A DNA stretch of 42,597 nt, taken from the IMG/VR virus record IMGVR_UViG_3300034073_003675, positions 1 to 42,597 of that record. One strand, 5' to 3'. A model generated the notes under the pieces. The model saw nothing but the letters and a program-made list of their open reading frames with translations. It did not search any database and was not told the origin of the DNA. How positions within the stretch are numbered: the first letter of the stretch is position 1; each line of letters starts with the position of its first letter. This stretch comes from a virus. The translations under genes and the position numbers were made by a program. Positions 3,911 through 21,964 of the stretch are shown here, in pieces.

Positions 3911-4285
3911 ATGCCTCGCAAAAAAGTAGACTACAAAATACCTTTCATAAAGGAGTCTGACAAGATAAACAATCTTCCAGCCGGAAGTGTGCCGCATCAG
4001 ATTTCTCTTTATGAAATGCGTAAACCAAATTGGGATGCCAGATATGATTGGAGAGAAAATCTCAGTTTTGATGCCAATTTAAAGTTTATCAATATGTATT
4101 ACGGTGGTAAGATACTTTGGGAAGATACTCAAACCGGAGCAAGATATTGGATGAATCAGAGTGGTCTTGCTGTTTTATTGAAAACTAAATCTATAGTTTA
4201 TGGTTCTGTATTAGGAACATGGGTTTTTAGAAAACATGGGACTACTTACAGTATCTTTCCTTATATGGAAAAAAGAAGGGGATAA
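3911..4285 (+). CDS. Hypothetical protein overlapping tmRNA 5' end
   Basis: Unrecognised 124-residue protein, basic at both ends, with a central YYGGKILWEDTQTGARYW stretch that looks beta-rich. Its last bases (4278-4285) are also the first eight bases of the tmRNA, so the acceptor stem of the RNA is partly coding sequence. No catalytic motif is visible. No good promoter for the tmRNA was found between gene and RNA, so the two may share a transcript. Confidence 0.6.
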   Translation: MPRKKVDYKIPFIKESDKINNLPAGSVPHQISLYEMRKPNWDARYDWRENLSFDANLKFINMYYGGKILWEDTQTGARYWMNQSGLAVLLKTKSIVYGSVLGTWVFRKHGTTYSIFPYMEKRRG

Positions 4286-4635
4286 ATTTGGTTTCGACAG
4301 GGGAAGTGAAAATTGATTTGCATAGTGGCGGGCGTTTATGACCGCTTAAAACCGTAAACAAAAGTAAGTGCAAACGATAGTTCTTACGCTCTTGCTGCCT
4401 GAAAACAGCAAGCAATTTAAAAGATACGCTGTTTGAGGATCTTTTAGGTTGTTATTAAACAAACTCGACCTTGTAGGGATAGTTCCTACTGCCAAGGTTT
4501 AAACAATGGAACCATACCATATACAACCTGCTCTTTGGTTAAGCTTATGGTGGGTAATTTATAAAAGAGCTATGCTATGTGAAAACAAATCTCTTGGATC
4601 TCTTCTGGACTTGGGTTCGACTCCCAATATCTCCA
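4278..4635 (+). ncRNA. ssrA: Phage-encoded tmRNA (tag ANDSSYALAA)
   Basis: Complete transfer-messenger RNA of 358 nt, which rescues stalled ribosomes and tags the nascent chain for proteolysis. The 5' end GGGGATA (4278-4284) pairs fully with TATCTCC (4628-4634), including a G3-U70 wobble, the alanine identity element. The conserved TTTGGTTTCGACAGG follows, and the 3' end has a T arm with TTCGACT. The tag frame starts at GCA 4370 and stops at TGA 4400-4402, encoding ANDSSYALAA, whose ALAA end fits ClpXP recognition. The discriminator A is encoded but CCA is not. The 3' end abuts the stop of a convergent gene. Confidence 0.95.
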
Positions 4636-5292
4636 TCAAGCTTCTTCCCAATAAAAAGCATATAACTTATCAGGGAGGCAGCTTTTTTTATTCATTTTTG
4701 AAACGGCATATGCAGTTAATCTATGAGTTGCATCCATGATTCTTATACTGGAACTGCCTTTACATTTCATTAATAGCCCACGATTACTGGCTACGTATAT
4801 ATTTTTCTCGTTACTGAAATTTGGATCAATAATATCTTTTGGTTTCAGACGACTAGGCATTTTTGAATATTCGTCTTCTATTTTTGTTGCAAGCTCTTTG
4901 CAAACATGATCAACGGCTTCTTTATTTTTATCTAAATCAGAACTATGTCTTGGTCTTTTTATTGAAAACCCTTTGCCTTTTTTATAGGCTTTATTATATT
5001 CTTCTGCAAATTCTTTAAAAGAAACGTTTGTAAAACACGTGTGATATGTCATTAGTTCTTCAACATCGATTTCAACCAAGGCAAAAGCAACGTTATCTTT
5101 CATCGAATTCCATATCCATTCACGTCGATCCTTGAATATGTCCAGTCTTAATTTATTTTCTAATGGATTGAGAAAGTTTGGCTCTGTTAAAAGCTTTGGG
5201 TTTATATTATTGACCACCGCTTGTAATGCATGATCTCCACAAAGCATCGACCATACCGGAATATGTTGATTGATTAGTTTTAAAATCTTCAT
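4636..5292 (-). CDS. Hypothetical protein with DATHR motif
   Basis: Protein of 218 residues on the minus strand, ending right beside the tmRNA 3' end. It is mainly helical and charged. Near the C-terminus it has SIRIMDATHRLTAYA followed by LYAFYW; a D/G-x-x-H-R element of this kind recalls ParB/Srx-like folds, but this is a weak resemblance and no function is assigned. It is divergent from the 5378 gene, and the intergenic region carries an inverted repeat and the 5343-5371 promoter. Confidence 0.6.
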   Translation of the reverse strand: MKILKLINQHIPVWSMLCGDHALQAVVNNINPKLLTEPNFLNPLENKLRLDIFKDRREWIWNSMKDNVAFALVEIDVEELMTYHTCFTNVSFKEFAEEYNKAYKKGKGFSIKRPRHSSDLDKNKEAVDHVCKELATKIEDEYSKMPSRLKPKDIIDPNFSNEKNIYVASNRGLLMKCKGSSSIRIMDATHRLTAYAVSKMNKKSCLPDKLYAFYWEEA

Positions 5293-6419: not shown

Positions 6420-7736
6420 ATGTTTTATAATACCGATGATCAGCATTTCGCAAGGGACATTATTTGTAGCTACGATGGAACATATGTTTCCCTCGTTGGA
6501 AGAGTTCTATCCTATCGTAAGATGGGTGGAGTAGCCTTCGGTCATATTTCTGATAATAGCGACACTAAGATTCAGTTTGCTTTCAATAAGAAGATGATGG
6601 ATGAAACCAATTTCAAGGAATGGTCTGCCATTCCTCGTATTGGCGATATTGTCAGCATTGAAGGTGAGGTCTGGACTACCTCTACCGGCGAAAAGACTGT
6701 ATTGGCTAATAAGGGCTTCCAGAGGCTACAGAAGGCTCATGTAGGCTTTCCTGACAAGTGGCATGGCATGACGGATCCGGAGCTTGTAAGGCGCAAGAGG
6801 TGGCTGGAATGTGCTACTAATCCAGAAGCCCGACAGCTATTCCGGAATCGCAGTAATCTGATCCGCTATATTCGTTCTTATATGGAGGAAAAGAATTTTA
6901 TGGAGGTTGAGACTCCTATTCTTACTCCGCAAGCAAGTGGTGCTCAGGCTCGTCCATTCATTACGCACCACAATGCGCTTGATGCAGATTTTTATTTGCG
7001 TATTGCGCCCGAGACTTATCTTAAGCGTATGACTGTTGCTGGTTTTGATCGTGTCTTTGAGATTGGCAAGCAGTTCCGGAATGAAGGTATCGATCCCTCT
7101 CACCTACAGGAATTTACTTCTCTTGAATGGTATGCATCTTATTGGGATTATTGCGACAATATGAAGTTTTTCCGTAATATGCTTGCTTATCTATGGAAGC
7201 AGTTTGCGTTTCAGAACATCGTTGATGTTAAGCTTAAGCTTGAAGCGTGGGCACAGGCTCCCGTTGTAAAGTATCGTGATCTATTCATGGAACATACCGG
7301 ACGTAATCCAGATGATATGAGTGCAAAGGATGCGGATCTATTGTTTAAGACAGCGGTTCGTCCTAAGCTTATTGATCCAATCTTTGTAGTGGATTATCCT
7401 GCTCATATGTCTCCAATGGCTGCCCGGCATCCCCATGATCCAAACACGGTTCAGCAATGGCAGTTTATCGTAGAGGGCTGGGAGGTAGTAAAGTGTTATA
7501 CGGAGCTTACCGATCCTGTATTGCAGCGACAGCTACTTGAACAGCAGATGCAGGAGCGAGCAAATGGCGATGATGAAGCCATGATGATTGAGGAAGATTT
7601 CCTTGAATGCATGGAGCATGGTATGCCTCCTCAGAGTGGTTGTGGTATTGGGATTGATCGTATGGCTTCGCTTTTGTTCGGTGTGAGTAATCTACGTGAT
7701 GTAGTATTCTTCCCTACACTTAAGGCATCTACTTGA
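6420..7736 (+). CDS. lysS: Lysyl-tRNA synthetase, class II
   Basis: Charges tRNA-Lys with lysine. 438 residues, shorter than E. coli LysS (about 505), with the N-terminal extension reduced. An OB-fold anticodon-binding domain spans roughly 20-105. Class II motif 1 is near 160-170 (FMEVETPILTP), motif 2 at 215-237 (GKQFRNEGIDPSHLQEF), and motif 3 at 407-425 (GCGIGIDRMASLLFG). The lysine-type VDYPAHMSPMAARHP and YTELTDP elements favour LysRS over AspRS/AsnRS. An AGGA sequence precedes the start. All catalytic motifs look intact, so it should be active. No tRNA-Lys is present in this window. Confidence 0.92.
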   Translation: MFYNTDDQHFARDIICSYDGTYVSLVGRVLSYRKMGGVAFGHISDNSDTKIQFAFNKKMMDETNFKEWSAIPRIGDIVSIEGEVWTTSTGEKTVLANKGFQRLQKAHVGFPDKWHGMTDPELVRRKRWLECATNPEARQLFRNRSNLIRYIRSYMEEKNFMEVETPILTPQASGAQARPFITHHNALDADFYLRIAPETYLKRMTVAGFDRVFEIGKQFRNEGIDPSHLQEFTSLEWYASYWDYCDNMKFFRNMLAYLWKQFAFQNIVDVKLKLEAWAQAPVVKYRDLFMEHTGRNPDDMSAKDADLLFKTAVRPKLIDPIFVVDYPAHMSPMAARHPHDPNTVQQWQFIVEGWEVVKCYTELTDPVLQRQLLEQQMQERANGDDEAMMIEEDFLECMEHGMPPQSGCGIGIDRMASLLFGVSNLRDVVFFPTLKAST

Positions 7737-8480: not shown

Positions 8481-8687
8481 ATGCGGGACACTCTATTGAA
8501 AGTTTTAAAACACCCAGGATTAAACCTTTCAATAAACGTATGCATGATGATGTTTCAATTTGTAATGGCGGCTAATCAGTATCTTCAAGGAGATATTACA
8601 GCCGCCCTTACTTTTTTAATCTCAGGATTTAGTTGCTCCACAGCAGTTATATATTGGATATTAATTTGGTGGGCATCCAAAAAATAG
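8481..8687 (+). CDS. Small membrane protein, two spans
   Basis: Protein of 68 residues. ATG 8481 was chosen because it lies just after the previous stop; an in-frame start at 8415 would overlap that gene. Two hydrophobic segments are visible (LNLSINVCMMMFQFVMAA and AALTFLISGFSCSTAVIYW), joined by a short polar loop, with a Lys-Lys end. Position after a putative cell-wall hydrolase makes a holin-like role possible, but this rests only on context. Confidence 0.55.
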   Translation: MRDTLLKVLKHPGLNLSINVCMMMFQFVMAANQYLQGDITAALTFLISGFSCSTAVIYWILIWWASKK

Positions 8688-8804: not shown

Positions 8805-8963
8805 ATGCTATATCTCGTTTCAATCGTGTTGATGTTCTTAACCTTTCCATTCGCTTGGGGAGGTTATTTTCTTTTGCAATCTAAACATCGCCTGATCCGA
8901 TACATAGGATTTTTTCTGCTTTATCCATTTTGCATCGTTTCTATGCTGGGATTTAAGGACTAA
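8805..8963 (+). CDS. Small membrane protein, 52 residues
   Basis: Begins five bases after tRNA-Glu, so it is probably carried on the tRNA transcript. The peptide starts MLYLVSIVLMFLTFPFAW and has a second hydrophobic part (YIGFFLLYPFCIVSML) after a basic loop, giving two membrane spans. There is no clear ribosome-binding site. Function is unknown. Its end is followed closely by the promoter of the next gene. Confidence 0.5.
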   Translation: MLYLVSIVLMFLTFPFAWGGYFLLQSKHRLIRYIGFFLLYPFCIVSMLGFKD

Positions 8964-8971
8964 AAAAATAC

Positions 8972-9000
8972 TTTAAATATTAGACGGGGTGTGATATTAT
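8972..9000 (+). promoter_or_regulatory. Sigma70-like promoter, leaderless start at 9007
   Basis: TTTAAA (8972-8977), 17 bases, TATTAT (8995-9000), with a TAAAAAAATAC tract ahead of the -35. The predicted start, 9007, is the A of the next ATG. Confidence 0.7.
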
Positions 9001-9006
9001 GATCAT

Positions 9007-9159
9007 ATGTCCAATAAGCGTAAGCAGAATGAGCCTAAGCGGCGCTCCGCTATCACGGAGTTTATGATCCTTAACCTTAAGGGCGGTCCCATGCGTGATC
9101 GTCGTTTCCGTCGTGAGAAGGCAAAGAGCAAGGATTATCGCAACCCTGAGAATTGGTGA
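9007..9159 (+). CDS. Small basic protein, 50 residues
   Basis: Highly basic peptide (MSNKRKQNEPKRRSAI at the start, RDRRFRREKAKSKDY near the end). No domain is recognised; RNA or DNA binding is plausible from charge. It is the first gene of a leaderless transcript and its stop overlaps the next ATG (TGATG), so it heads a short operon of four genes to 10495. Confidence 0.6.
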   Translation: MSNKRKQNEPKRRSAITEFMILNLKGGPMRDRRFRREKAKSKDYRNPENW

Positions 9160-9566
9160 TGGTAAAAATTTCCATTCAAAAGCCCCCGCCGAAGCGTGGT
9201 GATCTGAGCCACGTTGACCGTATTCCAGGCGGCAAGCGTTTCTGGAAGGTGGGTGCCGCATATCAAATGCGGGCAAATATTCTTCTATTTACTAATGAAA
9301 TTGGGATTTCATCGGTTCCTAAAAAGTATCATCGCAGGACAAATCAGCGATGGATGGAAAAGTATGCTGTCGCAGAACATATGGTAGAAAAGGGTTCCGT
9401 CTTTATCCTATTGCGCCCGCCCTCTTATAAGACCATCCTAAACACTCGGGAATCGAGTGCTCTGCAAGGCTGCTATCAGATCAAGGTGCTTTGTGGAGAA
9501 AAGATTGGTTGGCTTAAGTGTGATTCGGGTGTTAGTCCTCGTCAATTTTGTTGCCCCGTTAAGTGA
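9159..9566 (+). CDS. Hypothetical protein
   Basis: Unrecognised basic protein of 135 residues, coupled by TGATG to the previous gene; in-frame TTG and GTG codons just upstream are less likely starts. It has a Pro-rich N-terminus (QKPPPKRGD) and a C-terminal CYQIKVLCGEKIGWLKC stretch that looks like a small beta-barrel with Cys residues. Function unknown. Confidence 0.6.
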   Translation: MVKISIQKPPPKRGDLSHVDRIPGGKRFWKVGAAYQMRANILLFTNEIGISSVPKKYHRRTNQRWMEKYAVAEHMVEKGSVFILLRPPSYKTILNTRESSALQGCYQIKVLCGEKIGWLKCDSGVSPRQFCCPVK

Positions 9567-9579
9567 AGAAAGAAAAAAG

Positions 9580-10407
9580 ATGCCTCGCACTAAGAAGAAT
9601 ACTCTCCCGCTTGTTATCAATCTCTCCAAGTCTTTGGATGAACATATTAATCACCAGCGTTTTACGGAAAAGACAACGCTCGGAAAGATTGAATATCTAA
9701 ACAAGCTTCGTGCTAAGAATCGTTATTATGGTTATGGTCAGACAATCATGGATCTACTGATTGCAGATCAGTATGATACGAGTATTACGTTTAATCACGT
9801 TGTTGATCATAAAGGGGTTCCTGGGCGTCCTCTACATTTCTTTTGGGATGCCAATCATCAGGCATATATGATCAAGTATCCGGTTAATGCTCCGGAGTCA
9901 GAATCCCTAATCGATCCTAATAAGCCGGTTGTGGCATATGCTCCTAACGGTGACAACTATGCCATTCGTAAGATCGCAGATTGGTTGCGATTTGAAGTTA
10001 AGAATACTTGGGGTAGCAACGAATATCATTCCGGAATTCTTAAGCGGCTTAAGTTTCAGTATGAACGTGCATGGCTTGATCTAAAGCGTCGTAAGGTTGC
10101 CGAGCTAAAGGCTACGCTTGACGGAGAGAGCGTAACCGATTATGTTGCTCAGAAGCGTGCAGAAAAGACTCAGGCTATCATGGATATTGCTATGGGTATC
10201 TCTGCTCTAAATGCAAAGCTTGAAACCTATCGTAATCGGATTGGCACGGTTACTTCTGCGTCAGAAGCAAATCAGCTTTTTATGGAGGCAGAAAATTATT
10301 TCCGTGCTCTTACCTATATTCATAATCGTAATGTAAAGCGTTTGAATGACCGGACCCGTATTCCTGGCGGTGCTCGTGTTAAGCGTTTGGCAGAAAATAA
10401 GGAGTGA
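9580..10407 (+). CDS. Hypothetical protein, 275 residues
   Basis: Not recognised. ATG 9580 has an AAGAAAGAAAAAAG leader, weakly Shine-Dalgarno-like, and lies 13 bases after the previous stop. The N-terminal half is mixed, with VVDHKGVPGRPLHFFWDANHQ. The C-terminal half is helical and rich in Lys, Arg and Glu, with coiled-coil character from about residue 150. It belongs to the 9007-10495 operon. Confidence 0.65.
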   Translation: MPRTKKNTLPLVINLSKSLDEHINHQRFTEKTTLGKIEYLNKLRAKNRYYGYGQTIMDLLIADQYDTSITFNHVVDHKGVPGRPLHFFWDANHQAYMIKYPVNAPESESLIDPNKPVVAYAPNGDNYAIRKIADWLRFEVKNTWGSNEYHSGILKRLKFQYERAWLDLKRRKVAELKATLDGESVTDYVAQKRAEKTQAIMDIAMGISALNAKLETYRNRIGTVTSASEANQLFMEAENYFRALTYIHNRNVKRLNDRTRIPGGARVKRLAENKE

Positions 10408-10417
10408 GGAGGTTAAT

Positions 10418-10495
10418 ATGGAAGATAGAATGACCCTGATTATTATTGGCGTGGCTTTTATTCTAACCGTTATTACTGCTACCGTGATCGGTTGA
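10418..10495 (+). CDS. 25-residue membrane peptide
   Basis: Preceded by a perfect AGGAGG at 10408-10413, which supports translation. The peptide is MEDRMTL followed by a hydrophobic stretch IIIGVAFILTVITATVIG, one membrane span. It closes the operon before the tRNA-Ala promoter. Function unknown. Confidence 0.55.
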   Translation: MEDRMTLIIIGVAFILTVITATVIG

Positions 10496-10503
10496 AAAAA
10501 TAG

Positions 10504-10532
10504 TTTACAATCTTTATTTCCTCTGCTATATT
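10504..10532 (+). promoter_or_regulatory. Promoter of tRNA-Ala and the following ncRNA region
   Basis: TTTACA (10504-10509), 17 bases, TGC-TATATT (-10 at 10527-10532). It matches the 8688 promoter almost base for base. The next terminator is at 11216, so tRNA-Ala, the structured region and tRNA-Asn are probably one transcript. Confidence 0.75.
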
Positions 10533-10549
10533 TAGAGAAGATAAAGGAC

Positions 10550-10620
10550 GGGCTGTTAATTTAGCGGGAAAATAGTTGGTTTGCATCCAATTTTCGGCAG
10601 TTCGACTCTGCCACAGTCCA
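10550..10620 (+). tRNA. tRNA-Ala (TGC)
   Basis: Acceptor GGGCTGT pairs with ACAGTCC including the G3-U70 wobble that marks alanine tRNAs. Anticodon stem GTTGG/CCAAT holds loop TTTGCAT with anticodon TGC at 10582-10584. T arm GGCAG-TTCGACT-CTGCC. The D stem is weak (ATTT/AAAT). Discriminator A, no CCA. Confidence 0.88.
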
Positions 10621-11245
10621 TTAGCTCTTTAAAACTGAATATTTCTCATTCTATCCGATGGACCGTTCATCGCTGTATAAGGTCCGATAAGGCAATGGAA
10701 TGTCAATCGCCGTAAGTAGCTATTCGTCGTTTAAAAAGATTAATAGCGAAAAGAACGCAAGTTCGCAATCGGTTATATTATATTAATATATCTTCAATGT
10801 GATGATTGAAGAATGTCAGATGCGACCTGACAGGACAGGTGGGATAAGTATGGTTGACTTGTCTTTACCGTTGACAAAGCCCCTTCTCGGGAAAGAGAAC
10901 GCAGATAGAAGCGTTAAGCGAGAAAAGCCTACTTTTTATGTTTAGAGGGAGCTCGTATCTATCATTTTCCGATTTAGCTCAGTTGGTAGAGCGTTCGGCT
11001 GTTAACCGGATGGTCCGTGGTTCGAGTCCACGAGTCGGAGTTTCACGTGTCATATAAGCTGTATGACTAATAAGGTTGGTTTCCTTATGAATGAAGCGGA
11101 GTAGCTTCCGTAAAAAAAGCCCCAAAGCCTGGAAGGCTCGTTGTGATAGCAGCGAAGTAGACACCGATGGAGGATTAACCCGTCCAAGGAAATCAGGACT
11201 ACACTATCGTTTTTTAACCCCGATGTTTCTTACATCGGGGTTTTT
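10621..11245 (+). ncRNA. Candidate large structured RNA with embedded tRNA-Asn
   Basis: About 600 nt between tRNA-Ala and a strong terminator, with no convincing coding frame but many hairpins. Examples: CGATG/CATCG (10657-10672) whose loop GACC can pair with GGTC at 10681 as a pseudoknot; GCTATT/AATAGC (10719-10747); GAAC-GCAA-GTTC with a GNRA loop (10753-10764); CTTCAAT/ATTGAAG (10792-10811); TTCTCG/CGAGAA (10885-10924) enclosing AACGC/GCGTT; GTCATA/TATGAC (11049-11067); and nested GATAG-GTAG...CTAC-CTATC (11135-11208). A tRNA lies within. Large phage RNAs of the GOLLD and ROOL classes are known near or around tRNAs; membership here is inferred from architecture, not from a sequence match. 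Confidence 0.55.
10968..11040 (+). tRNA. tRNA-Asn (GTT)
   Basis: Complete cloverleaf: acceptor TCCGATT with AGTCGGA, D arm GCTC/GAGC, anticodon loop CTGTTAA with GTT at 11001-11003, T arm CGTGG-TTCGAGT-CCACG. Discriminator G fits tRNA-Asn. It sits inside the 10621-11245 structured region and has no promoter or terminator of its own. Confidence 0.95.
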
Positions 11246-11250
11246 CTTTT
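11216..11250 (+). terminator. Strong intrinsic terminator of the tRNA/ncRNA unit
   Basis: Eleven-pair stem AACCCCGATGT (11216-11226) with ACATCGGGGTT (11232-11242), followed by TTTCTTTTTT. Confidence 0.9.
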
Positions 11251-11294
11251 TTCAATACTATTTATTGCTATCCTATTGACAATGGAGTATTAAG

Positions 11295-11666
11295 ATGGCA
11301 AAAGTTACATTAACACAGCTAAGAGCTTTAATCAAAGAAGCAATTGAAGAAATGGGCGTCGAAGAGGATCTAACCGGTCGTAATCTTCAAACGGCGGCGG
11401 GCTCTAAAGCCCCAGCCCGTTATATGGGTGGTAGTTTAGGTTCTGCACCTAAAGAAAGAACGGCAAAAGACCTATCATTATCGGCGCATGACAAATATAT
11501 GCAAATGCAAAGTTTATTAGACACATTATTGTCAGACGAACTTAAAGATGATCCAGAAGGTCAAGCAGAAGTTTTGCAACAAATTCAAAAAATTACCTCT
11601 GACGCTACAAAAACTGTCATGCAAGAGGCACTTCGTAGACGCAGAAAAATGCTCAAAAATCGCTGA
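11295..11666 (+). CDS. Hypothetical protein with targeting-like N-terminus
   Basis: Protein of 123 residues, not recognised. Its start, VTLTQLRALIKEAIEEM, resembles the amphipathic N-terminal peptides of the capsid-targeting group described in the findings and contains a possible cleavage site LIKE|A. The rest is helical and charged with a basic end (RRRRKMLKNR). A GGAGT sequence precedes the ATG. An internal virion protein is a reasonable guess from the N-terminus alone. Confidence 0.6.
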   Translation: MAKVTLTQLRALIKEAIEEMGVEEDLTGRNLQTAAGSKAPARYMGGSLGSAPKERTAKDLSLSAHDKYMQMQSLLDTLLSDELKDDPEGQAEVLQQIQKITSDATKTVMQEALRRRRKMLKNR

Positions 11667-11987: not shown

Positions 11988-13253
11988 ATGACATACAACA
12001 AAGAAACATTGGCAGCAGATTGGCAAACAAATCCAAGATGGAATGGCATTACCCGTCCTTATACACCAGAAGACGTTTTAAAACTTCGTGGTAAGGTTTT
12101 GGTAGAACATACGTTAGCCCGCCTTGGAGCAACAAAACTTTGGCGGCGTTTAAATAATCAATCCTATGTTGCTGCTCTTGGTGCTCTTACCGGTAATCAA
12201 GCTATTCAAGAAGTAGCTGCCGGTTTAGAAGCAATCTATCTAAGCGGTTGGCAAGTGGCGGCCGATGCAAACCTCGCCGGTCATATGTATCCAGACCAAT
12301 CTCTCTATCCAATAGATAGCGTTCCAGCAGTTGTTAAAAAGATTAATAATGCTCTCCTACGTTGTGAACAGATTGATAGCGTTAATGGAGATAATAGTAA
12401 AGATTGGATGCAACCTATTGTAGCCGATGCAGAAGCAGGATTTGGCGGCAATCTAAATGCTTATGAACTAATGAAGATGATGATTGAAGCTGGTGCGGCT
12501 GGTGTTCATTTTGAAGATCAACTATCCAGCGCAAAGAAATGTGGTCATTTAGGTGGTAAAGTTCTTGTTCCAACTAGTGAAGCGATTGCTAAACTTATTG
12601 CCGCAAGATTAGCTGCCGATGTTATGAACGTTCCAACTCTTGTTATTGCCAGAACCGATGGTGAAGCTGCAAATCTTATAACAAGTGATATTGACGAAAG
12701 AGATCGCCCATTCCTTACTGGAGAGAGAACCGCAGAAGGTTTCTATCGTGTTCGTAATGGATTAGAGCAATGCATAGCCCGTGGATTGGCATATGCGCCC
12801 TATTCTGACCTTCTATGGATGGAGACAAGCAAACCTGATTTAAACATTGCCAGAGCCTTCGCAGAGGGCATTCACAAGGTATATCCAGGCAAGCTACTTG
12901 CTTATAACTGTTCTCCAAGTTTCAATTGGTCTAAGTATCTTGACCGTGCTCAAATGCTTACATTCCGTGAAGAGTTGGCAGCTATGGGATATCGTTTCCA
13001 GTTTATTACTCTTGCCGGCTTCCATTCACTTAATACTTCAATGTTTGAGTTGAGTCAGAATTATAAGAAAAACGGAATGTTAGGTTTCTCTGAATTGCAA
13101 CAGAGAGAGTTTGCAATGCAGGATCAGGGTTTCCGAGCAGTTAAGCATCAAAGCTTTGTAGGAACTGGATATTTTGATTATGTTCAGAATACCATTCAAA
13201 ATGGTGCGTCAACAGTAGCATTAAAGGATAGCACAGAGACAGAACAGTTTTGA
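11988..13253 (+). CDS. aceA: Isocitrate lyase
   Basis: Cleaves isocitrate to glyoxylate and succinate, the first step of the glyoxylate shunt. 421 residues, near the 434 of E. coli AceA, and alignable end to end by eye. The active-site loop [11 protein letters not shown] is intact (catalytic Cys185), as are the metal-binding ADAEAGFGG and HFEDQ, the YNCSPSFNW substrate loop and the [10 protein letters not shown] region. The C-terminus STETEQF matches the family lid end. It has its own promoter and is predicted to be translated without a leader. No malate synthase is in this window. Full conservation argues for an active auxiliary metabolic enzyme and not a relic. Confidence 0.96.
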
Positions 13254-15729: not shown

Positions 15730-16842
15730 ATGATGATGAATCGGACGTTTGGTGTGGAGATCGAGTGCATTGGGATTTCGCAGGGTGCGGCTCACGCTGC
15801 TATCACGGCTGCGGGTTTCGCTTGCGAGATCGAAGGCTACAATCACAATACCCGGACCCATTGGAAGATCGTCACCGATGGTTCGGTGCGTGATAACCGT
15901 GGCAATCCTGGCATCGAGGTTGTTTCGCCCGTTCTTCGTGGCATCGATGGGCTTAATCAGCTCCGCTCGGTCGCTGCGGCTCTTTCGGCTGCGGGCGCTA
16001 CTGCGAATAAGACCTGCGGGCTTCACGTTCACGTCGGCGCTGCGGATCTCACGATCAACGAGATCAAGATGATCGTCAAGCGTTACGAGTCTTTCGAGAA
16101 CGTGATCGACAGCTATATGCCGGTCAGCCGTCGTGCGAACAACAACACCTATCTTAAGAGCATGGCGGATTGGAGCCGTTCTTACGGCACGCAGCTTGCG
16201 GCTTGCAGCACGGCGTCGGATATCCTGAGCCGTTCGTGGGATCGCTACTACAAGGTTAACCTCGCTGCCTACGTTCGCCAGAACACCATCGAATTCCGTC
16301 AGCACAGCGGCACGGTTAGCCCTGAGAAGATCGGGAATTGGGTTCTTTTCGTTCTTAACTTCGTTGAGGTTAGCCGTGGGCTTGTGGCGTCGGCTACTCC
16401 GGCGGTGGCTGCCCCGGCTCGTCCCCGTCGTGGTCGTCCGGCTGGTCGTCCGAGTGTTCGTGATCGTCGCCTCTTCAAGATGCTTCGTGCGATGTATGAT
16501 TACAGCCAGACGGGCAGCGGTGAGCGTTCCACGGTCGCCTATCTTTCGCAGGTGTCGGGTTACGCCGAGGCGAGCATCCCGGCTTGCATTTCGGAGATCC
16601 GTAACAAGTGGGGCGTGCGTATCCGCAAGGCTCGCTGGAACGGCACCTACACTACGTCGGTGAGCATCATTCGTCTGACCGAGATTGAGAATGCCGTCAA
16701 CAACGGCACCGTGCGCCCGGCTCGTCCCGCTCGCCCGGCTTCCTTCATGCCCACGGTGGCGTCGGATGATTTCGCTCTCCGTGGTCTTAACGCTGGTGTG
16801 CAGAGTTACTTCAACGAGCGTGCTGCGGAGCTTGGGGCGTGA
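15730..16842 (+). CDS. Amidoligase family protein (COOH-NH2 ligase)
   Basis: ATP-dependent ligase of the glutamine-synthetase/GCS-like fold (amidoligase_2 type), 370 residues. Visible marks: FGVEIEC at the start, DGSV...GIEVVSPVL, TCGLHVHVG with the metal-binding His pair, and NTIEFRQHSGT. Such enzymes form amide bonds between small molecules, peptides or proteins and an amine. A Pro/Arg/Ala-rich linker (from about 225) leads to an extra C-terminal domain. The gene is clearly more GC-rich than its neighbours, which may mean a separate origin. It heads an operon with 16842 and the GGCT-like gene at 17090. The substrate is unknown. Confidence 0.85.
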   Translation: MMMNRTFGVEIECIGISQGAAHAAITAAGFACEIEGYNHNTRTHWKIVTDGSVRDNRGNPGIEVVSPVLRGIDGLNQLRSVAAALSAAGATANKTCGLHVHVGAADLTINEIKMIVKRYESFENVIDSYMPVSRRANNNTYLKSMADWSRSYGTQLAACSTASDILSRSWDRYYKVNLAAYVRQNTIEFRQHSGTVSPEKIGNWVLFVLNFVEVSRGLVASATPAVAAPARPRRGRPAGRPSVRDRRLFKMLRAMYDYSQTGSGERSTVAYLSQVSGYAEASIPACISEIRNKWGVRIRKARWNGTYTTSVSIIRLTEIENAVNNGTVRPARPARPASFMPTVASDDFALRGLNAGVQSYFNERAAELGA

Positions 16843-20218: not shown

Positions 20219-21964
20219 TCAATTCTCCTCTTCGTTTACTATAACTGAATTACAAGATAAGGTTAATCCAATGACACTTACCGCATGTTCAAGTGCATAT
20301 CTTGTTACCTTAACTGGATCTATAATACCTTCTGCTACCAAGTCTCCATATGTTCCTTTAGCAGCATTATAACCAAAACGACGATCATCTTTTTTGGTTT
20401 CCTTGTTTTTAAAATGTCTGACAGCAGAAACCAAATCTTCTACATCAGCATTTTCAATATCTACAAACAGGGCTTTATAACCTGATTGAGTTTGCTTTAA
20501 TCTTTCTTTAACAACCTCAGATGAAACGCCGGTATTGCTGACGATTGTATTGAGTGGATACTCACAAACGTTAGCTATGATTTCTACACCAGCAAGTTCA
20601 TCTTGATTTAGTTTTGAGAAGTTTCCTAATCCTGCCAACTTATCTCCGTTTATAAGTTCCCTGAGATGTTGAGCAGCGTAAAAGAGAGCAGTACCGCCCC
20701 CAGGAACAATACCTTCTTGCGTAGCGGCCAATGTCGCATTTACTGCATCCTCCACTCTATCTTTCTTTTCCAAAATCTCTACTTCTGTAGAACCGCCAAC
20801 CTTAATAACAGCTACGCCACCGGAGAGCCTTGCAAGCCTTTTACGGTATTTGTCTACATGGAGGGCATCAAGGGTCTTGTCTTCCATTAAAGAGGCTCTA
20901 AGAGCCCGTATACGGTCTTCCAGAGACGTTTTACGTTCACTATCAAGGTCGCTAATGATTGTAGTTGTGTTGCGTCCTATAATAACTTTCTTGGCAGAAC
21001 CAAGATGATTAAGGGATGCTTTTTTAAGAGTTAAATCTGTGGTGGCATTAAAAACTAATCCGCCAGTTAATGTTTGAATATCTGAAAGGATATCAGCCCG
21101 GTGCTCACCATAGCTTGGAGCCTTGATAGCGCAAACCTTAACAACTCCCTTTGTCTTGTTGACAATAAGAGTATGAAGTGCCTCGCCTTCTACATCGTCA
21201 GCAATGATTAGAAGTGGTCGTGAGGTTTTAAGAACTCCCTCTAATAATCCAATAATATCCTGTATAGAAGATATTTTATTTGGTGTCATTAGAACGTAAG
21301 GATTCTCGAGCTCACAGGTGGCTCGTTCAGAGTTTGTGATAAAGAATGGTGAAACATAACCGCTGTCGAGCTGCATACCTTCAACGATATCAAGTGTAGT
21401 TTCTACGCTCTTAGCTGGTTCTACGGTTATGATGCCATCGTTTCCTACACGTTCTATTGCAGTAGCGAGTAGATCACCGATAGAACGATCACCATTAGCA
21501 GAGATTGTTCCAACATTAACGATATCCTCTCTAGAGGAAAGTGGGATAGAATTCTGTCTAAGAAATTTAATAACGATTTCGGCGGCATTATCCATACCTT
21601 TCTTGATATCAATAGCAGAACGTCCGGTAGAAATCATCTTAAGACCTTCTGTGAATATAGCATGACCTAATACGGTAGCAGTAGTAGTTCCATCACCAGC
21701 TATATCATTTGTCTTTGATGCAACTTCTTTTAAGAGTTCAGCACCCATAGACTGAAGCTTATCTTTAAGATTAATAGATTTAGCTACGGTTACACCGTCT
21801 TTGGTTATTAGTGGAGGTCCGGTTTCCATATCAATTATTACGGAGTGACCGGATGGGCCCATAGTAGAAGCTACTGCGTTTGCAAGAACAGTAGCTCCTT
21901 TATATAATTCTTCATGGGCTTTAGGAAAGAAAACAACTCGTTGACTGGGAGGTTGATTGCTCAT
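20219..21964 (-). CDS. groEL: Chaperonin GroEL (phage)
   Basis: 60-kDa-class chaperonin of 581 residues, slightly longer than bacterial GroEL (about 548). ATP-binding elements are present: TMGPSGHSV (34-42), the catalytic DGTTTATVL (91-99), and ISANGDRSIGDL, VPGGGTALFYAA later. The hydrophobic apical-domain region reads EGMQLDSGYVSPFF. The C-terminus ends NEEEN and lacks the GGM-repeat tail. Its start overlaps the previous gene by ATGA. Phage GroELs fold capsid or other phage proteins, some without GroES. No GroES was seen in the window. Confidence 0.95.
   Translation of the reverse strand: MSNQPPSQRVVFFPKAHEELYKGATVLANAVASTMGPSGHSVIIDMETGPPLITKDGVTVAKSINLKDKLQSMGAELLKEVASKTNDIAGDGTTTATVLGHAIFTEGLKMISTGRSAIDIKKGMDNAAEIVIKFLRQNSIPLSSREDIVNVGTISANGDRSIGDLLATAIERVGNDGIITVEPAKSVETTLDIVEGMQLDSGYVSPFFITNSERATCELENPYVLMTPNKISSIQDIIGLLEGVLKTSRPLLIIADDVEGEALHTLIVNKTKGVVKVCAIKAPSYGEHRADILSDIQTLTGGLVFNATTDLTLKKASLNHLGSAKKVIIGRNTTTIISDLDSERKTSLEDRIRALRASLMEDKTLDALHVDKYRKRLARLSGGVAVIKVGGSTEVEILEKKDRVEDAVNATLAATQEGIVPGGGTALFYAAQHLRELINGDKLAGLGNFSKLNQDELAGVEIIANVCEYPLNTIVSNTGVSSEVVKERLKQTQSGYKALFVDIENADVEDLVSAVRHFKNKETKKDDRRFGYNAAKGTYGDLVAEGIIDPVKVTRYALEHAVSVIGLTLSCNSVIVNEEEN

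Follow-up and report, generated by a model that had tools for sequence, protein, structure and literature searches.

A large structured RNA of T4-like phages that shares its tRNA-linker layout, but not its sequence, with GOLLD

The window, meaning the whole stretch of DNA analysed here, is IMG/VR record IMGVR_UViG_3300034073_003675 and is 42,597 bases long. Its genes for packaging and for the head are T4-like (terminase, portal and a gp23-type head protein), and it has seven tRNAs and a tmRNA. The tmRNA (4278-4638) is ordinary and separate, has the tag ANDSSYALAA and is kept in relatives. The window also contains a GroEL chaperonin gene on the minus strand (20219-21964; phrog_5725, E 1.6e-141) and a gene for an amidoligase-type enzyme (15730-16842; phrog_2443, E 7.9e-42). 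The phage gene adjoining the RNA described here (11988-13253) encodes isocitrate lyase, a glyoxylate-cycle enzyme (PF00463, E 1.9e-107). Isocitrate lyase is also encoded at 8617-9906 of L002 (PF00463, E 1.6e-106), and the start of a gene resembling it by eye lies near 8606 of L029; L-numbers denote related IMG/VR contigs and W the window's own copy of the RNA. Directly downstream of the RNA in L006, the minus strand encodes a 682-aa protein (8806-10854) that by eye is like a CCA-adding tRNA nucleotidyltransferase.

The RNA belongs to a unit that runs in the order promoter, tRNA-Ala, structured 5' domain of about 320 nt, tRNA-Asn, structured 3' domain of about 165 nt and terminator. The features of the window's copy are as follows.

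10504-10532, plus strand: promoter, TTTACA-17-TATATT with the AAAAAATAG block ahead (sequence scan; the extended sequence recurs before tRNA units)
10550-10620, plus strand: tRNA-Ala (TGC), the first gene of the unit (ARAGORN and Rfam)
10640-10963, plus strand: 5' domain, helices P1, P1b, P2 and P4-P11 and a pseudoknot (eight-sequence alignment A7)
10647-10702, plus strand: P1 (10647-10651/10698-10702), P1b (10652-10655/10686-10689) and P2 (10660-10664/10681-10685)
10667-10671, plus strand: UCAUC, the invariant loop of P2 (GAUGA, 10801-10805, is its candidate partner in a loop-loop pairing)
10719-10764, plus strand: variable hairpin P4 (10719-10724/10742-10747) and P5, GAAC-GCAA-GUUC (10753-10764)
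10791-10832, plus strand: P6 (10791-10797/10806-10812, GAUGA in the loop) and P7 (10814-10819/10827-10832, loop NGCGAC)
10874-10963, plus strand: module copy 1 (descriptor), with AAAGCCCC, P9 (10885-10888/10895-10898), P10 (10899-10902/10911-10914), P10 loop GAUAG (10904-10908), P11 (10918-10922/10952-10956) and CUAUC (10959-10963)
10967-11041, plus strand: tRNA-Asn (GTT), the linker, 3 nt past the pseudoknot (ARAGORN and Rfam)
11042-11208, plus strand: 3' domain, P12 (11049-11054/11062-11067), P13 (11070-11075/11083-11088), P14 (11096-11101/11106-11111) and module copy 2
11112-11208, plus strand: module copy 2 (descriptor), with GCCCC, P15 (11126-11129/11135-11138), P16 (11139-11143/11150-11154), P16 loop GAUAG (11145-11149), P17 (11157-11160/11199-11202) and CUAUC (11204-11208)
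11216-11242, plus strand: rho-independent terminator, 11 bp (scan; the stem is kept with compensatory changes in relatives)

A preliminary description of this DNA had placed tRNA-Ala, a region of hairpins, tRNA-Asn and further stems in one unit, flanked by a promoter at 10504 and a terminator at 11216. Both flanking signals were located at the positions listed, the tRNAs were identified by ARAGORN and Rfam, and the fold is supported by covariation. The promoter and terminator scan by itself did not rise above chance. The extended promoter (AAAAAATAGTTTACA-17-TATATT), however, occurs twice in the window, at 8685 before tRNA-Glu and at 10501 before tRNA-Ala, and the same extended sequence, with its AAAAAATAG block, also precedes tRNA units in L002, L003, L004 and L006. 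This recurrence suggests that it is a real, dedicated stable-RNA promoter, and it seems to be reserved for tRNA units.

Relatives were sought in IMG/VR by means of the neighbouring protein and of DNA patterns taken from the RNA. The RNA was found on seven further contigs (L002, L003, L004, L005/L028, L006, L010 and L029), giving eight members in all. The 5' domain is present in every member. The 3' domain is present in five (W, L002, L004, L006 and L010) and absent in two (L003 and L029); the contig of L028 ends before it. No true relative turned up among bacterial genome contigs, annotated phages or plasmids, and a DNA search of the annotated phages and plasmids found nothing akin except tRNA-Asn itself. 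Motif matches in bacterial genomes, and also in L011 and L032, were rejected as chance and lay mostly in coding DNA. Weaker R1/R2 matches at other sites of the members' genomes, as well as in three distant annotated phages, were at chance level, and the two R1 sites inspected in L033 and L034 both lack the pseudoknot module. Literature searches on this RNA and on phage tRNA-Asn introns found nothing.

Covariation in these relatives was well over both shuffles and slid controls, supporting the earlier view of a large, structured non-coding RNA that contains a tRNA. In the 5' domain (A7, eight sequences) the ten helices, including the pseudoknot, are paired in 92.5% of cells. Changes on both sides were seen in 24 of 52 base pairs, counted by sequence rather than by event and in a model chosen with the same sequences in view; shuffles give an expectation of 9.4, none of 500 reaches 24, and slid controls give at most 11 such pairs. 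Compensatory changes occur in each of P1, P2, P6, P7, P9, P10 and P11. P1 is 100% paired and has one position with four pair types, P2 has two pairs with changes on both sides, and compensatory changes affect five of the seven pairs of P6 and three of the six of P7. P8 is a variable helix, with 61% of its cells paired. For P4 and P5 each sequence was inspected individually, and both are hairpins at the same place, with differing sequence, in all eight members. P5 is the GNRA hairpin that had been noted before; its GCAA loop is found in four of the eight. A CCC/GGG hairpin proposed by RNAalifold was replaced by UCUC/GAGA with the loop GGGAAA, because L029 reads CUUC/GAAG at this site.

The 3' domain (A2, five sequences) is paired in 99% of cells. 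Six of its 41 pairs have changes on both sides, with the counting and the choice of model as for the 5' domain, and 2 of 500 shuffles reach this number. The fold energy of 10621-11245 has a z of -4.5, but the two domains without the tRNA and terminator have values of only -1.7 and -2.2. Folding energy alone is therefore modest evidence and it is covariation that demonstrates the structure.

The pseudoknot that had been proposed near 10657-10684 (GAUG/CAUC) did not hold up, being lost in L010, L029 and L002. The best supported pseudoknot is instead that between 10904-10908 and 10959-10963, and the invariant complement of UCAUC is the GAUGA at 10801-10805. Of all the invariant unpaired runs, which include long ones such as AAAGCCCCT and CCGUAAGUA, only UCAUC and GAUGA, in the loops of P2 and P6 respectively, match by Watson-Crick pairing over 5 nt. 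By our estimate about 0.15 such matches are expected by chance over all runs, and fewer for loops alone. This is suggestive of a loop-loop contact, which we list as a candidate. Covariation cannot probe this pairing or GAUAG/CUAUC because both are invariant.

Sequence identity is also high within the RNA. Between W and L002 it is 90% in the 5' core, 93% in the 3' domain and 89% in tRNA-Asn, in comparison with 69% in the adjacent gene; the entire 5' domain, including the variable P4, P5 and P8, is 73% identical. The 5' core and the adjacent gene are 93% and 69% identical between W and L003, and 79% and 63% between W and L029. Judged by these identities, the RNA core is conserved to the same degree as tRNA-Asn. 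Comparison of the members shows both domains to be under selection for structure as well as sequence.

The two domains end alike, with CCCC (CUCC in the 3' copy of L004 and L010), a 4-bp hairpin, a 4-5-bp hairpin with GAUAG in its loop, a longer stem and CUAUC. In the first copy P9, P10 and P11 covary and GAUAG/CUAUC is invariant. A descriptor of the pseudoknot gave 12 matches in 484 kb of strand sequence; these are seven 5' and five 3' copies, and there are no others. A search of 335 nt with a covariance model of copy 1 placed its best hit on copy 2, in register (E 0.036). The reverse test with a model of copy 2 matched copy 1 in register but weakly (E 1.1). Plain sequence alignment of the 5' and 3' domains did not rise above shuffles, although the descriptor and the covariance model succeed, and the duplication is thus visible solely with structure. 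We take the repetition of the module in both domains as real. It is likely that the module arose through duplication, and convergence is possible.

Every one of the eight members has a tRNA-Asn(GUU) after its 5' domain. The spacing is 3 nt in W and L029, and a hairpin and insert of about 160 to 720 nt lie between the domain and the tRNA in L002, L003, L005/L028, L006 and L010. The tRNA is uninterrupted in W and L028 and carries an intron or insert in the other six. Group I introns of about 200 nt are found in L002 (8145-8341), L010 (9901-10098) and L029 (7402-7600), identified by Rfam match, and in L006 (about 11136-11341, minus strand), identified by sequence likeness. In L003 (7803-7923) and L004 (7378-7498) a 48-nt insert lies within the anticodon, at the site of the relatives' group I introns. 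It has no likeness to those introns: either it is a second kind of tRNA intron or the tRNA is dead. ORFs that by eye are HNH-like, an assignment for which Pfam gave no support, lie between the 5' domain and tRNA-Asn in L002 (7540-8103), L003 (7450-7812) and L006 (11367-11729, minus strand). They are preceded by partial copies of the 5' half of the tRNA, as if the tRNA start had been displaced by a homing event. Additionally, a conserved hairpin element of about 50 nt lies between the 5' domain and the tRNA or insert in L004 (about 7325-7377) and L002 (about 7406-7455); it is absent in the window and L029, and its paired sequence differs in L010.

The architecture had been likened to that of GOLLD, with membership of GOLLD or ROOL raised as a possibility. 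The likeness in architecture stands, as a 5' region, a linker with a tRNA and a 3' region are all present. Membership was not borne out. When cmscan was run on the window region with all 4227 Rfam families, the two tRNAs were the sole matches at gathering level and neither GOLLD nor ROOL was matched at E<=10, and a search of four member records with RF02032 gave none at E<=10 either. The same RF02032 search finds the GOLLD locus in a control genome (E 4.5e-40). Reciprocally, models of this RNA did not match a GOLLD locus. As the Rfam models gave no match, the RNA is neither GOLLD nor ROOL by sequence and fold. In the window region T-box was not matched at E<=10, and no other leader was above its cut-off. 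The group I model (RF00028) does not match the 5' or 3' domain, and matches only the inserts in tRNA-Asn of L002, L010 and L029. We are highly confident that the RNA is real, conserved and structured and that it falls outside the Rfam families. The idea that it may be a new class is consistent with the data, and we propose an uncatalogued class of large structured non-coding RNA in T4-like phages.

What the RNA does is a matter for more tentative reading. Excision of the tRNAs by the host enzymes of tRNA processing (RNase P for the 5' ends and nucleases for the 3' ends) would leave the 5' domain as a stable RNA of its own, along with a 3' domain RNA in those members that have one. The GAUAG/CUAUC ends and the UCAUC/GAUGA loops may then let domains pair, within or between molecules. 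The RNA would thereby be an abundant scaffold or particle in lytic growth, acting in trans, possibly oligomeric and working in a manner like GOLLD or ROOL, though with an unrelated fold. We give a stable scaffold set free by tRNA processing slightly less than an even chance. A two-domain particle could not be universal, since L003 and L029 are without the 3' domain. A bolder reading, which we consider rather doubtful, is that this is a third giant phage RNA class, unrelated to GOLLD and ROOL, that would self-assemble via its two module copies and enclose or present the linker tRNA-Asn; GAUAG/CUAUC would then be exchangeable within or between chains.

The most serious competitor to the scaffold reading is a role in cis on tRNA-Asn, in which the 5' domain is a leader controlling processing, splicing or read-through and the 3' domain is an optional trailer. 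The 3-nt gap between domain and tRNA in W and L029 fits such a leader too, as do the constant position of tRNA-Asn after the 5' domain, the retention of this domain where the 3' domain is lost, and the introns or inserts in six of the eight tRNAs. It is weakened, however, by the members with hundreds of bases between domain and tRNA, in which the domain is unchanged; W and L028 are free of introns yet keep it, and no leader family was recovered. We regard a cis-acting leader as unlikely. A ribozyme, with the invariant core (AAAGCCCC, the GGGAAA loop and the GAUAG pseudoknot) as its catalytic centre, would account for the long invariant unpaired runs and the compact pseudoknotted fold, which are typical of catalytic RNAs. 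Scaffold RNAs show comparable conservation too, though, and no catalogued ribozyme family matches save the separate group I introns borne by the tRNA, so a catalytic role seems quite improbable.

Less probable still is a divergent member of GOLLD or ROOL missed by the Rfam models. Its layout and genomic setting are as in GOLLD, but the searches in both directions were negative and this RNA can do without the 3' part, which is universal in GOLLD. We give least credence to the remnant of a mobile element, such as a degenerate intron with an HNH gene, fixed beside the tRNA. The linker of relatives does hold group I introns and HNH-like ORFs; the domains, however, have no group I match, lie outside the tRNA, are present with or without inserts and are more constrained than the adjacent gene.

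Abundant and elaborate as they are, GOLLD and ROOL remain unexplained. Should an independent phage RNA combine the same tRNA-linker layout with a different fold, this would point to selection on the layout itself. It would also be a smaller, modular object whose 5' domain is universal and whose 3' domain is optional, and experiments on it could separate the role of the linker tRNA from that of each domain.

Finally, the RNA can be set beside known systems. In GOLLD, which forms cages, the 3' region is universally conserved, conservation of the 5' region is weaker, and tRNAs can be present in the linker (PMC12286853). Like the present RNA, GOLLD (RF02032) is phage-encoded, hundreds of nucleotides long and near tRNAs, with pseudoknots and the order 5' region, variable linker, 3' region. 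In contrast, it is the 5' domain that is universal here and the 3' domain that is optional, the GAUAG/CUAUC module is repeated and the linker always holds tRNA-Asn. Homo-oligomeric nanocages and a rise during lysis are further features of GOLLD. ROOL is likewise a phage RNA, large and ornate, that occurs near tRNA genes and has a variable linker and pseudoknots, but ours matches no Rfam family, carries a tRNA in its linker and has its module duplicated. The tmRNA (RF00023), also encoded by this phage, combines a tRNA part with pseudoknots, whereas the RNA described here holds a complete tRNA-Asn and has no tmRNA match. The abundant non-coding transcript of about 800 nt in ICP1, which its authors compare with GOLLD and ROOL (PMC7567579), is similarly an unclassified large phage RNA; it is not near tRNAs and, compared by sequence alone in a BLAST of the phage collection, showed no relation to ours.
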